Positions 30,078-35,560 of a DNA stretch of 36,439 nucleotides are shown one piece after another. The notes below the pieces were generated by a model. It was not told the DNA's origin. It ran no database searches and saw nothing but the letters and a program-made list of their open reading frames with translations. The stretch is taken from positions 1 to 36,439 of the forward strand of contig CALVIU010000010.1 in the NCBI GenBank assembly GCA_944331835.1, in the 5' to 3' direction. Position 1 is the stretch's first letter. The number at the start of each line of letters is the position of its first letter. Source of the stretch: an uncultured Bacilli bacterium (GTDB taxonomy: Bacteria > Bacillota_I > Bacilli_A > RF39 > UBA660). The translations under genes and the position numbers were made by a program.

Positions 30078-30179
30078 CAAAAATAACTCTTCATCGAAAT
30101 CTGGTGGGGAGTTTTCTTAATATAGCTTCGAAATTCAGTGGGGAGTTTTAGTAAAAAAACTTCGAAATCTGATGGGGAG
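30058..30179 (+). repeat. Four 20-base sites at exact 34-base period
   Basis: The sites CTTCGAAATCTAGTGGGGAG (30058), CATCGAAATCTGGTGGGGAG (30092), CTTCGAAATTCAGTGGGGAG (30126) and CTTCGAAATCTGATGGGGAG (30160) all lie in the same orientation, spaced exactly 34 bases apart. The first is part of the terminal repeat. They are probably transposase-binding sites. The right end has only a single copy, so the element is asymmetric. The 14-base gaps are too short for CRISPR spacers. Confidence 0.9.
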
Positions 30180-30208
30180 ATGATAGAGTTATTTTATCAT
30201 CTCTTTTT
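30177..30208 (+). terminator. Hairpin terminator upstream of the transposase frame
   Basis: GAGATGATA (30177-30185) pairs perfectly with TATCATCTC (30195-30203), with five T after it. It would shield the transposase from outside transcription, a known safeguard in insertion sequences. Confidence 0.75.
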
Positions 30209-30242
30209 GTATGCAATAATTGATACAGAAAGAGGTGCTGAA

Positions 30243-31526
30243 GTGGATGAATTAAGAAAAATCATGGGGTTAGGAAATGGTTATAAAGTTGTTAAGATTG
30301 AAGAAGGAAGTGATGGCAAGGTAAAAGCTAAATATATTCATGTAGAAACTAAAAGTAGTAAATGTAAATGCCCAAAATGTGGGAAATATACTAAAAGTGT
30401 TCATGATAGATTAAAGTCAGTGAAATTAAAATATGTAAAAGCATTTGAACAAGTTACATATGTAATGCTTAGCAAAAAGAGATTCATATGTCATAAATGT
30501 AATTATAAATTTACAGAACCAGTCACAATTCAAGGAGAAAGCAAAAGCATATCAAATAAAGTAGAACAAAAAATATTAATTGATTTAAGAAATTATAATT
30601 TAAGTTTAAAATATATAGCAGAAGAAAATAATGTGAGTGATAATACAATCAGAAACATACTTAAAGAAAGTATGGCGAATTATCCGGAACATGTAATAAA
30701 TCTTCCTAGAGTAATATCATTTGATGAATTTAAAGCAGATACTAAAAAAGGAAAATATGCATTTGTCTTAAATGATCCAATCCATAAAAAAGTCCTTGAC
30801 ATATTACCAAATAGAAAAAAGAATACCTAATCCAATATTTTACATATTGCAATAATAGGTATTCAGTAGAGTATGTCATATCAGATATGTATGAACCATA
30901 CTTGTTGGTCACCCAGATAATGTTTCCCAAAGCTAAATATGTGGTTGACCCATTCCATTATACCAGATATATAATGGATGCACTAGATAATGTAAGAATA
31001 AGATTACAAGAAAATTATGGATATAATAGTTATGAATATAAAATGTTAAAAAACAAGAAAAATATAAGTTTATTAAGACAATATAGTAATGATATAGATT
31101 GGTTTACCTATACCAAAAGATATAAAAATAAACATATGGTAGAAATATTAAAATATGATCTTAGAAAAAATATTAAGTATAAGTAAAAAATATAAAATAG
31201 CATATCAATTAAAAGAATTATTTTTAGATATAACACATCATGCAACGTATGAAGATGTAGAAAAGCAATTGCTTAGTTGGATATCATTAGTAAGAGAACA
31301 AGATATACCGGAGATGGTTGAAGCAGCAAGGACAATAGAAAATTGGTTAGAATATATATGTAATTCATTTATAGATAAAAGATTTTCGAATGGATATACA
31401 GAAGGAATGAATAATAAAATAAAAGTAATAAAAAGAGTAGGATTTGGATATAAAGATTTTGACTTTTTTAGAATAAGATTATTATATATTTTAAATGATA
31501 AAAATAATAAAAAGTCCAAAAAATAG
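30243..31526 (+). pseudogene. ISL3-family transposase, interrupted by two frame changes
   Basis: Read across three frames, this is a DDE transposase. An N-terminal zinc ribbon (CKCPKCGKY and ICHKCNYKF) is followed by a helix-turn-helix region (YIAEENNVSDNTIRNIL). The catalytic residues are D in SFDEFK (codon 30723), D in VVDPFH (codon 30947) and E in GYTEGMNN (codon 31401), the last within the family's C-terminal SNGYTEGMNNKIKVIKRVG block. The likely start is the GTG at 30243, 5 bases after AGAGGTG. Frame 1 stops at 30830, after an A6 run (30815-30820) where a -1 shift restores the protein. A second A6 run (31165-31170) needs loss of one base. The first may be programmed frameshifting; with the second, the gene is probably inactive unless these are sequencing errors. 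Confidence 0.8.
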
Positions 31527-31707: not shown

Positions 31708-31735
31708 AAGAGCAAAATTAATTGCTCTTTTTTTA
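31708..31735 (+). terminator. Terminator downstream of the insertion sequence
   Basis: AAGAGCAA (31708-31715) pairs with TTGCTCTT (31722-31729), with T to 31734. It probably served the surface protein gene before the insertion; the same hairpin type recurs at 33670. Bases 31736-31805 show no clear promoter for the sigma gene. Confidence 0.8.
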
Positions 31736-31823
31736 GTGAAATAATAATATATTAAAAAAAGATAATTTCTTTGCAATAAAATTGATTCCTATTGCATTGT
31801 CTTAGTGAAAGGAGTTAAAAACA

Positions 31824-32330
31824 GTGGAGTTAAGTAGTTACATTGTAAGAATAGCTGATAAGGATACAAATGCTTTACATGAATTATATGAATTTATAAA
31901 TAAAAATGTTTATGCATATTCTCTAAGTATTTTAAAAAATCATGATGATGCTTTAGAGGTAATGCAAGATACATTTATAACTATTTATAATAATGCTGAT
32001 AAGTATGAAAACCAAGATAAACCAATGGCATGGATACTTACTATTACTAAGAATTTGTCTTATATGAAGTTAAGAAAAAGTAAAGTAACAAGTGATATTG
32101 ATGATCTAGTATTTGCAAGTAATGATAATCATGATGATAAATTATTAGTTAAGTATCTATTAGATAAATTAACTAAGGAAGAAAGAGAAATAGTAATACT
32201 ACATGTTGTAAATGGATTTAAGTTTCATGAAATATCTAAATTGCTTAATTTAAAGTTGTCTACGACATTATCTAAATATCACAGAGCAATTAAAAGAATC
32301 AAAGAAATTGTAAAGGAGGAATCGATATGA
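31824..32330 (+). CDS. ECF-type RNA polymerase sigma factor
   Basis: This is a 168-residue sigma-70 family factor with region 2 (about 8-80, DALEVMQDTFITIY and AWILTITKNLSYMKLRK) and region 4 (about 112-162, LTKEEREIVILHVVNGFKFHEIS). The start is a GTG at 31824 with AAAGGAG 9 bases upstream; an ATG start is absent. The stop overlaps the next ATG (ATGA), pairing it with its anti-sigma factor. It is much shorter than Bacillus SigI (about 250 residues) and is ECF-like, although its partner is RsgI-like. The surface genes to the left and right are candidate targets; this is inferred from position only. Confidence 0.88.
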   Translation: MELSSYIVRIADKDTNALHELYEFINKNVYAYSLSILKNHDDALEVMQDTFITIYNNADKYENQDKPMAWILTITKNLSYMKLRKSKVTSDIDDLVFASNDNHDDKLLVKYLLDKLTKEEREIVILHVVNGFKFHEISKLLNLKLSTTLSKYHRAIKRIKEIVKEESI

Positions 32331-33670
32331 GTAAAATAAAGAAAAAAATTAAGGGGGCTTTTAATAATATCGTACTTCCAGATTTTGATATGAATAATCT
32401 AGAAAAAAGGAAAGGAATGGTATTAGTGAAAGAAGAGAGTAAAAAAAGTAAAAAGGGGTTATGGATTGGTTTATCTACAGCAGTGGTTGCTGTTTGTGTT
32501 TGTTTATTTATTGGCCTTGGCTATTTTAATAATAATATGAGGGTTGCATCTACAATTGGTATTGATGTAAATCCTAGTATTACTGTAACTGTTAACAAAA
32601 AAGAAAAAGTACTTGATGTAACACCCAATAATGATGATGCAAAAATAATATTGGAAGGAATGGATCTGGCAGGTAGTGATATAAATGTTGCTATTAATGC
32701 CTTGATTGGTTCAATGGTTAAAAATGGCTACATTGATGAACTGGCTAATTCAATACTTATCTCCGTAGATAATCCAAATAGTGCTGAAAGCGAAGCATTA
32801 AGACAAAAAATAGTTGATGAATTAAATGCTTTTATAAATAGTGGAAATAATATTTCTGTTGTTAGTCAAAGCATTACTTCAAGTAGTGATAAAGAATCAT
32901 TAGCAAATAGTTATGGTATATCAGTAGGTAAATTAGAACTTATTGAAAAATTAATTGCTAAAAATAATTTATATACTTATGAAGAATTAAAAAATTTATC
33001 TATTAATGAATTAAATTTACTTCTTGGAAGTACTACCGAAAATGTAACTACCTCAGGTACTGCTAGTGATAAGTCATATATAGGTAAAGATAAAGCATTA
33101 GAAATTGCTTTAAGTGATGCTGGAGTAAGCAGTGTAACTTGGAGTGAAGTAGAGATGGATTATGATGATGGATTCATGACTTATGAAGTAGAATTTACCT
33201 ATAATAATCGAGAATATGATTATGAGATAAATGCTATAACTGGAGATGTTTTAGAATCTAATAGAGAATATGATGATGATGCAAATGCTAATAGTGGTTC
33301 ATCAAGTAATAGTAATAGTTCTAGCAGCAGTTCAAGTAATAATTCTAGTAGTAGTGCTAATACGTATTCTATTTCATCAACCATTTCTGGTTATGAAAGT
33401 GAAGCAGAAAGTATATTGAGTTCTATCAATAATATTACAACTCCAAGTACTAGAGATGAAGCTGCATCTTTATATAGAGAATGGGAAAGTAAGATTGAAT
33501 CTTTAGATAAAGAGTTAGATAATTATGATGATACTCTAGAAAGAATGTATAAACGAGGAGAATTATCTCGTAGTGATTATAATTCTTATGAACGCCAAAT
33601 AGAAGCGATAGAAAACACTTTAGAACAAGCAGAAGAAACTTTAGAATACCGCACTGGTTATGATGATTAA
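32327..33670 (+). CDS. RsgI-like transmembrane anti-sigma factor with PepSY domain
   Basis: This 447-residue protein has a basic cytoplasmic N-terminus of about 43 residues that would bind the sigma factor, and a membrane helix (about 45-66). Next is an RsgI-type outer domain starting ASTIGIDVNPSITVTVN (from 74), with NNDDAKIILEGMDL following. The N82-P83 bond lies at the position where RsgI proteins undergo self-cleavage. A PepSY-like domain (about 250-312, ALEIALSDAGV to YEINAITGDVLE), a Ser/Asn-rich linker (about 320-345) and a charged coiled coil (about 355-440) complete it. RsgI homologues release SigI after extracellular cues such as polysaccharides. Here PepSY and a coiled coil replace carbohydrate-binding modules. 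Confidence 0.85.
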   Translation: MSKIKKKIKGAFNNIVLPDFDMNNLEKRKGMVLVKEESKKSKKGLWIGLSTAVVAVCVCLFIGLGYFNNNMRVASTIGIDVNPSITVTVNKKEKVLDVTPNNDDAKIILEGMDLAGSDINVAINALIGSMVKNGYIDELANSILISVDNPNSAESEALRQKIVDELNAFINSGNNISVVSQSITSSSDKESLANSYGISVGKLELIEKLIAKNNLYTYEELKNLSINELNLLLGSTTENVTTSGTASDKSYIGKDKALEIALSDAGVSSVTWSEVEMDYDDGFMTYEVEFTYNNREYDYEINAITGDVLESNREYDDDANANSGSSSNSNSSSSSSSNNSSSSANTYSISSTISGYESEAESILSSINNITTPSTRDEAASLYREWESKIESLDKELDNYDDTLERMYKRGELSRSDYNSYERQIEAIENTLEQAEETLEYRTGYDD

Positions 33671-34231: not shown

Positions 34232-35560
34232 ATGAGAAAAGTAAATTTGGCTTTAGGTTTATTTGTAGTGTTTATGTTTGGCTTCATAGCAAACGTATCT
34301 GCTAAGGAAATTAATGTAACTGATGTAAGTACATTAAATGAGGCTTTAACAGATGCTGATGCAGGGGATACTATTATATTAGCTGATGGTACATATAATA
34401 CCGACATTACAATTGAAAAAGATATTGTATTAAAAGGTACAAGTGTTGATGGTACTATCGTTAATGGTTCTGTTATTTTAAATGCTGAAGGTATTGAAGT
34501 TACTCTTGATTCTTTAACAATAACAGATGCTGGAACCATAATTGATGTAAAAGCAACATCTACATTAACTGTAAATAATGCTAAGGTATTATATGCTGGT
34601 TACAACGGAACATTTAGCGTTAATAATTCTGATGGTATTTGGCTTGAAAAAACAGCTAATGGTTCAACAGTTAATGTAACAAATAGTACCGTAGTTGCAA
34701 AATACGCTATATGGGTTTATGGAGAAGAAAATACTGTAAATGTTACTGGTTCAACAATTAATGGTTGGGCTGCTATAGATATTTCTAATGGTAGCGGTTC
34801 TCAAACTACAGCTAATAATAACAAGGTTAGTATAAACGATTCTACAATTATAGGAACAAACGTTTATAATGGACGTACTGATGCTTATGGTGTTATAGTT
34901 ATCGGTGGACAATCTAATGTAAAAGTTGAAATTAGTGAATCTACAGTAAAAAATGAGTTCCCTGTAACAAATAACCAAGTAGATGTAATATTATTTTCTC
35001 CATCATATGCAACTTCTGAAAATTCAGAAGTAACAATTTTAAATTCTGAATTGATTAACAATGATGCAACAGGAAGTAGTGCTGTTATTAACTATAGTTC
35101 AGAAGAAATTCAAAATGGTGAAAATATAGTATCTTTATATGAAACAACAATTACTTCTGAAAACGATACTATTTATAGTACAGTTGGTGATTATGTTACA
35201 TTTACTATTGATTTAATGGGTGTTCAAACAACAACTCCAATACCTGCAAATTCAACAATACCTGAAGATGCTCTTGTTTTAGATGAAATTGAAGGGTATA
35301 CTTTTGAAGGTTGGTATTTAGATGAAGATTTTACCACTCCATTTGATGCAACTGTTCCAGTAACTGATAATACTATATTATATGCTAAGTTAACTGAAAT
35401 AGTTGAAGAACCAACAACACCTGAAAATCCATCTGAACCAGAAGAACCAATAGAAAACCCAAGTACAAGTGATAACATTTTAACTTATGTTGTTCTTGGT
35501 GGAATTTCTCTAGTAGGAATTGTTGGTGCTAGTCTTTATTTAAAGAAAAAATCAAATTAA
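34232..35560 (+). CDS. Secreted beta-helix protein with InlB-type repeat and C-terminal sorting-like signal
   Basis: This 442-residue protein has a signal peptide (residues 1-24, ending NVSA). A strand-rich Asn/Thr/Val region (about 25-310) follows, with beta-helix rungs such as STVVAKYAIWVYGEENTVNV and STINGWAAIDI. An InlB B-type (Listeria-Bacteroides) repeat, GYTFEGWYLDEDFTTPFD, lies at about 355-390, then a Pro/Glu linker. The end is NPSTS (409-413), a membrane helix (about 416-437) and a KKK tail. That layout is a cell wall sorting signal in form, with NPSTS in place of LPxTG. No sortase gene is in the window. The likely role is surface adhesion or glycan contact (inference). AAAGGAG precedes the start. 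Confidence 0.85.
   Translation: MRKVNLALGLFVVFMFGFIANVSAKEINVTDVSTLNEALTDADAGDTIILADGTYNTDITIEKDIVLKGTSVDGTIVNGSVILNAEGIEVTLDSLTITDAGTIIDVKATSTLTVNNAKVLYAGYNGTFSVNNSDGIWLEKTANGSTVNVTNSTVVAKYAIWVYGEENTVNVTGSTINGWAAIDISNGSGSQTTANNNKVSINDSTIIGTNVYNGRTDAYGVIVIGGQSNVKVEISESTVKNEFPVTNNQVDVILFSPSYATSENSEVTILNSELINNDATGSSAVINYSSEEIQNGENIVSLYETTITSENDTIYSTVGDYVTFTIDLMGVQTTTPIPANSTIPEDALVLDEIEGYTFEGWYLDEDFTTPFDATVPVTDNTILYAKLTEIVEEPTTPENPSEPEEPIENPSTSDNILTYVVLGGISLVGIVGASLYLKKKSN

Follow-up and report, generated by a model that had tools for sequence, protein, structure and literature searches.

The gene pair analysed here lies in a stretch of 36,439 nucleotides from an uncultured Bacilli bacterium (contig CALVIU010000010.1), the whole of which is referred to as the window, and the question that it raises is how an anti-sigma factor of the RsgI type comes to be encoded directly behind a sigma factor short enough to be of the ECF kind, and what such a combination might do for the cell. 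Self-cleaving anti-sigma factors have been studied as partners of SigI. Our answer, which we hold to be probable, is that the pair forms an autoregulated circuit, made up of an ECF sigma factor and a modular, self-cutting PepSY anti-sigma factor, of a type that is widespread and is undescribed in the literature that was searched.

The sigma factor

The two genes, with their ATGA overlap, are found where the initial annotation had placed them, and their Pfam domains agree with its description of an ECF-length sigma factor running into an RsgI-type protein (Table 1). In the sigma factor, Pfam recognises Sigma70_r2 (E 2e-11) and Sigma70_r4_2 (E 6e-10), and by this domain content, sigma2 and sigma4 only, it is an ECF factor (group IV). 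SigI, by comparison, consists of sigma2 plus SigI-C, has no sigma4 and is about 240 residues long; the window protein has sigma4 and just 168 residues, and no SigI model occurs among the 25 of its 93 NCBIfam matches that are listed.

For a relative of the pair, a construct was modelled in which the sigma factor is joined to the start of its anti-sigma factor by reading through the intergenic stop. The sigma model aligns with SigE over residues 13-183 (Z 15.4) and with SigK over residues 16-183 (Z 14.9), as against SigI6 and SigI1, with which it aligns over sigma2 alone (13-104). In the tethered model the anti-sigma end is composed of helices with pLDDT 58-81, at an overall pTM of 0.45.

Table 1 Features of the gene pair and of its upstream region, in window coordinates
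Feature	Position	Strand	Details or basis
Terminator-like hairpin upstream, probably insulating the operon	31708..31729	+	Consensus match only
-35-like element TGCAATAAAA of predicted autoregulatory ECF promoter	31772..31781	+	Motif conservation
-10-like core CATT (YRTT), 13 nt past the -35 element	31795..31798	+	Motif conservation
ECF sigma factor gene	31824..32330	+	168 aa; start GTG; sigma2 + sigma4
Anti-sigma factor gene	32327..33670	+	447 aa; ATGA overlap with sigma gene
Residues 1-43, cytoplasmic, presumed sigma-binding end	32327..32455	+	Not RsgI_N; binding presumed
Transmembrane helix, residues 44-70	32456..32536	+	AlphaFold model
RsgI_M periplasmic domain (PRD), residues 75-208	32549..32950	+	Pfam, structure match
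DVNPS, predicted self-cleavage N82/P83	32564..32578	+	NP conservation; cleavage by extension from RsgI
PepSY domain, residues 252-311	33080..33259	+	Pfam, model
Ser/Asn-rich linker, probably disordered	33272..33352	+	Sequence; low pLDDT 319-342
C-terminal three-helix region	33353..33667	+	Model; in same genus also a separate lipoprotein

Layout of the anti-sigma factor

Pfam matches the anti-sigma factor to RsgI_M (PF23750) at residues 75-208, with E 3.1e-27, and to PepSY at residues 252-311, with E 6.3e-10. At E values up to 1 there is no Pfam match to RsgI_N, and DUF3298, which is the lysozyme-binding domain of RsiV (the anti-sigma factor of SigV), is absent from the 17 Pfam matches seen at that level. 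Residues 1-43 contain neither His nor Cys, and so no HxxxCxxC zinc motif, the mark of the zinc-type ECF anti-sigma factors. By sequence, its closest relatives in the PDB are RsgIs, RsgI2 and RsgI9 among them, in each case the periplasmic domain, and the matched Clostridium thermocellum chains start at the residue aligned with P83, i.e. after the cut; a Foldseek search with the window model likewise returned RsgI periplasmic domains as all of its best ten hits, then CD1622 and the PepSY protein YpeB. The AlphaFold model, made from 34 sequences, is confident for the PRD and for PepSY, places a transmembrane helix at residues 44-70, has the NP loop connecting two strands (75-80 and 84-89), and shows a low-confidence linker (319-342) followed by three confident C-terminal helices (343-443); residues 1-45 have pLDDT 36-50.

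The term “RsgI-like”, as used in the initial annotation, fits the periplasmic domain, with its RsgI_M match and NP site, but not the cytoplasmic end, which has no RsgI_N match. The remainder of the layout proposed there, in which PepSY replaces a sugar-binding module in the outer part and a Ser/Asn linker leads to a helical C-terminus, is borne out by the PepSY match and by the model. Within the genus, the C-terminal helical domain is also encoded on its own, as a small lipoprotein (L007), and the window's own genome has it at G000:C27:6595-7023, in a copy that lacks a signal peptide and appears truncated.

The predicted NP cleavage site

Conservation of the NP site, on which the suggestion of self-cleavage turned, proves to be high: it is kept in 52 of the 55 surveyed PRDs paired with ECF factors (and lost in the other three), in 80 of 80 named ECF-paired relatives, and in the window itself. 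By analogy with RsgI, the window PRD would be expected to cut itself between N82 and P83, the two pieces staying together. For RsgI, two sources describe self-cleavage, a step carried out by RseP and degradation in the cytoplasm (PMC10575876, PMC12203970), and in the second of these the C. thermocellum RsgIs are described as having XAA signals that are used by ClpXP (PMC12203970). The transmembrane helix in the window is without the AA of these signals, for which reason the last degradation step may differ.

Occurrence of the pairing

A search for RsgI_M in a phylum sample of 392 genomes, the listed members of which are all from the window's own class, found the domain in 64. The survey loci (every listed place except G381:C67) hold 101 distinct PRD proteins; 47 of these lie directly behind an ECF sigma factor and 10 behind SigI, while the remainder are lipoprotein-like (37), membrane-anchored or unclear (5) or cut (2). 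Loci L001-L122 hold 124 such proteins, comprising 55 paired with ECF factors, 10 paired with SigI, 39 lipoprotein-like, 18 with a TM helix or of other kinds and 2 cut.

The set of 55 ECF-paired proteins, which combines survey loci with a family search, has RsgI_M throughout (55/55), PepSY in 18 and RsgI_N in none, as against RsgI_N in 7 of the 10 SigI-paired proteins, whose sigma partners served as a control set and matched SigI models in every case (10/10). That RsgI_N is missing from the ECF-paired proteins suggests a known self-cleaving module joined to another sigma-binding end. Among the complete sigma partners of the ECF-paired set, from which the cut sigma factor of L114 was excluded, sigma2 is present in 53 of 54 and sigma4_2 in 52 of 54, and across the 141 genomes of the window's family, its own included, none encodes a SigI scoring over the curated cut-off.

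Named genomes were scanned with five close relatives as queries, yielding 273 encoding stretches, the best 80 of which were used. These 80 come from uncultured Bacilli and Clostridia, from Oscillibacter and from others, including Roseburia inulinivorans DSM 16841, Traorella massiliensis and Bacilliculturomica massiliensis. Directly upstream of each of the best 80 lies an ECF sigma factor, at a spacing of -14 to +15 nt in 79 cases, and every anti-sigma factor among them has from 1 to 7 PepSY domains, a figure that is biased because the ranking query itself carried PepSY (the wider figure being 18/55). The nearest kin of the window (L125-L129) have one PepSY domain and align with the query right up to its C-terminal residue; PepSY repeats are present in most of the other named relatives shown. 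The pairing had at first been regarded as a local oddity, and this does not hold: the type is widespread in Bacilli and Clostridia (47/101 in the survey, 80/80 among the named loci). On a tree of PRDs (150 rows and 134 columns, with PRDs of fewer than 85 residues omitted and the 80 named loci sampled at one in three), partner labels are clustered, with 17 changes against a shuffled mean of 59.7, and many forks are open.

Two other arrangements of the PRD were seen. In the window's family some PRD proteins are anchored in the membrane and have the NP site, but only a short cytoplasmic stretch of a few residues and no sigma gene upstream (L008, L009, L012, L016, L018, L019, L022, L027, L032). 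A lipobox-bearing second PRD protein often comes after the sigma/anti-sigma pair, with 10 cases within 400 nt, in SigI operons (L080, L084, L095, L096, L111, L115, L118) and at loci that are ECF or cut (L081, L038, L049).

A promoter motif before the sigma gene

The earlier observation that no SigI promoter is to be seen here was correct, but an ECF-like and probably autoregulatory promoter is present, namely TGCAATAAAA-N13-YRTT at 31772-31798, 52 nt before the sigma start. Upstream regions were collected for 131 sigma genes of this type, and 106 were kept as non-redundant. Exact TGCAATAAAA occurs in 54 of these 106, where Markov shuffles lead one to expect 0.2, and is followed 12-14 nt on by YRTT in 41 (0.06 in shuffles); for upstream regions of the PepSY type, both elements are exact in 38 of 59. 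The median distance from motif to start codon is 50 nt, and a paralogous operon in the window's genome carries the motif as well. A conserved ECF-type motif upstream of the sigma gene implies autoregulation, and to judge from sequence the pattern appears to be that expected of an autoregulated ECF operon.

A variant, CCAATAAAA with a TTGTT-like -10 element, stands upstream of some ECF-PRD sigma genes (L097, L098, L106, L113, L121, L122). At bases 471-3316 of L327 (G548:C23), a PRD-PepSY protein of 750 residues lies behind a sigma gene that belongs to a different subtype and has no TGCAATAAAA motif.

Motif sites beyond the sigma promoter

For genome searches a strict pattern, TGCAATAAAA-N13-YRTTR, was used, with the reversed pattern as control. 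In the genomes of 65 relatives this gave 55 sites against 4 for the control (a batch of 15 genomes contributing 14 sites and 1 control site, and a batch of 50 contributing 41 and 3). Sigma promoters account for 37 of the 55, and one of the other 18 is the reverse reading of a sigma promoter, leaving 17.

Six of these 17 precede proteins with PepSY domains by Pfam, five free and secreted and one a receptor copy, although the number of independent targets is fewer than six because two come from closely kin Oscillibacter genomes. A secreted protein combining Cu_amine_oxidN1 with two PepSY domains is found behind the motif in these two Oscillibacter genomes (L235, L273), in Bacilliculturomica massiliensis (L236) and in an uncultured Clostridia genome (L274). 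An Oscillospiraceae genome (L277) has a motif-preceded secreted protein with three PepSY domains, the gene for which is divergent from the sigma operon, with two copies of the motif side by side; divergent sigma and PepSY promoters with two motif copies are recorded for L317. The receptor copy (L270, Clostridiales) has a PRD and four PepSY domains without a sigma-binding end. A further 2 of the 17 sites precede 99-residue proteins that have no Pfam match over the cut-off; these look PepSY-like by eye, but in the absence of Pfam support they were rejected as PepSY targets and are not counted. One site precedes the gene for an SLH surface protein (G538), and the other 8, intragenic or unclear, are probably due to chance.

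PepSY proteins are few in these organisms, the anti-sigma factor often being the sole one (sets of 13 and 31 genomes). In the 13-genome set, 6 members of which were included for having a second motif site, upstream DNA could be read for six of the free PepSY genes with secreted products, and all six have the motif, 5 of them exactly and 1 with a single mismatch; two further PepSY genes lie at contig ends, and one hit is at a true RsgI. In the set of 31, assembled without regard to a second site, the motif is missing before 4 of 5 further free PepSY genes (G531, G559:C152, G569:C31, G546) and is found before the receptor copy of G559 alone; the PepSY hit at G548:C23 belongs to an additional ECF-PRD pair, and the other hits, omitted from the count, are presumably of YpeB or YycI type. 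With these 4 of 5, the view that free PepSY genes are targets without exception is not supported, and PepSY output belongs to some lineages. Within that limit, the position of the motif suggests a PepSY-gene regulon in several Clostridia, and suggests that the output of the circuit is its own sensor domain.

In the window's genome, allowing up to one mismatch, 17 motif sites compare with 9 for the reversed pattern, the two sigma promoters alone being convincing; the exact motif occurs at these two and once inside a sigma-like gene on contig C4. The motif search of this genome found no PepSY target, and no motif before its M4 peptidase gene. In the window's genus, the coiled-coil lipoprotein was considered as a target and rejected, having no motif upstream.

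Mechanism and rival explanations

By extension from RsgI, the circuit might work as follows. The short cytoplasmic end would hold the ECF sigma factor, and the RsgI-type periplasmic domain would cut itself at N82-P83 with its halves remaining together, PepSY and the helical stalk presumably lying outside the cell. Were something to bind or pull on PepSY or the stalk, the outer piece would leave, and the site-2 protease RseP would then cut the membrane helix and set the sigma factor free; an M50 protease of the RseP type is encoded in the window's genome. Motif conservation supports the next step, in which free sigma factor would transcribe its own operon from TGCAATAAAA-N13-YRTT. In several Clostridia it would also transcribe the gene for a further PepSY protein, either a secreted one or a receptor copy that lacks the sigma-binding end, and this extra PepSY protein could mop up the same ligand and so shut the signal off. 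As ligand, an extracellular protease or some other protein bound by PepSY is the most likely, and the earlier suggestion of a protease or peptide signal likewise draws on PepSY biology by analogy. A possible partner for PepSY in the window's genome is a thermolysin-like peptidase of the M4 family (G000:C9), in which FTP and, weakly, PepSY are matched. The fuller version of this reading, in which a large chimeric family joins the RsgI module to ECF factors and a PepSY receptor, the sigma factor has few targets beyond its own gene and a PepSY copy that is secreted or free of the sigma-binding end, and the circuit titrates its own ligand (probably an extracellular protease), is put forward tentatively, as somewhat less likely than otherwise.

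The rival with most to recommend it keeps the PRD as described and makes the outer part a mechanical or cell-wall sensor, in which PepSY and stalk are anchored to the wall or to a protein and the cut halves are separated by tension instead of a protease ligand. The window's helical stalk stands in for the extra PepSY domains of its relatives, in which the PepSY number ranges from 1 to 7, and in G538 the motif stands before a gene whose product is a surface protein with SLH; however, six targets carry PepSY, which points to PepSY binding rather than to length, and we regard a mechanical sensor as unlikely, if deserving of attention. It is more doubtful still, and rather improbable, that the PRD in this branch no longer cuts itself and that the cascade is set off by a distinct site-1 protease, as with RsiV and SigV: the three surveyed ECF-paired PRDs without NP do indicate that the pairing is possible in its absence, but the site is otherwise retained throughout the survey, in all the named relatives and in the window.

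A true SigI-RsgI pair, merely diverged, would have the RsgI_M domain and NP site that are seen, and yet is extremely improbable given the sigma4 domain of the window sigma factor, RsgI_N in 0/55 ECF-paired proteins, the lack of any SigI over cut-off in the family and a promoter that is not of SigI type; SigI membership was rejected on sigma4, on the lack of an RsgI_N partner, and on a relative's sigma model that aligns with SigE and SigK over both domains. That the two genes are neighbours by chance has a negligible claim beside 55 + 80 closely coupled pairs, 79 of the 80 lying within -14 to +15 nt. Our preference remains with the autoregulated ECF circuit and its PepSY anti-sigma factor.

Relation to known systems

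With SigI-RsgI of C. thermocellum and Bacillus subtilis the pair shares a membrane anti-sigma factor, the same periplasmic fold and NP site, a two-gene operon and an expected RseP step. It differs in that its sigma factor has sigma4 and no SigI-C, its anti-sigma N-terminus gives no RsgI_N match, its outer part is PepSY with a helical stalk rather than a carbohydrate-binding module, and its promoter is TGCAATAAAA-N13-YRTT. The window pair resembles SigV-RsiV, and the other ECF pairs of Firmicutes in which the anti-sigma end is not of the zinc type, in its ECF sigma factor, short cytoplasmic end, single TM helix and predicted autoregulation, but its anti-sigma factor has an RsgI-type PRD and no DUF3298 Pfam match.

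PepSY domains are protease inhibitors in M4 propeptides, and free PepSY proteins have no clear role, according to PMC4282423; the same source has the exported PepSY of YpeB and of Streptomyces SspA as thought to bind and restrain partner proteins (PMC4282423), a resemblance to the present case, in which, unlike those, an anti-sigma factor carries PepSY as its outer part. The open-licence literature yielded no paper bringing RsgI and PepSY together. In the part of PMC4711584 available, “RsgI-like” and “ECF sigma” both occur, with SigI and ECF kept as separate kinds, and the accessible part of an ECF anti-sigma survey makes no mention of RsgI (PMC7406223). What is already known, then, is RsgI with SigI, and ECF factors with other anti-sigma factors; an RsgI-type trigger on an ECF sigma factor with PepSY is undescribed in the open-licence literature that could be searched, and the conserved ECF-type promoter of these pairs is new here.

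That ECF systems in gut Bacilli and in Clostridia carry this self-cleaving trigger implies that it is separable from its sigma factor. Carriers include cultured species (Roseburia inulinivorans, Traorella massiliensis), the regulon can be read from the promoter motif, and PepSY, being common to receptor and output, offers a direct test of the role of free PepSY proteins.

Neighbourhood of the pair

The window's genome has a second full copy of the operon (G000:C15:21738-23084; L002, L123), with an anti-sigma factor 71% identical and the same promoter motif, adjoining a gene whose product weakly matches SPOCS and LysM. Just upstream of the pair, at 30138-31526 of the window, is a broken ISL3-type transposase in three pieces. 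Downstream, at 34232-35560, is a surface-type protein ending in NPSTSDN, a hydrophobic stretch and KKKSN, which we take to resemble a sortase signal.
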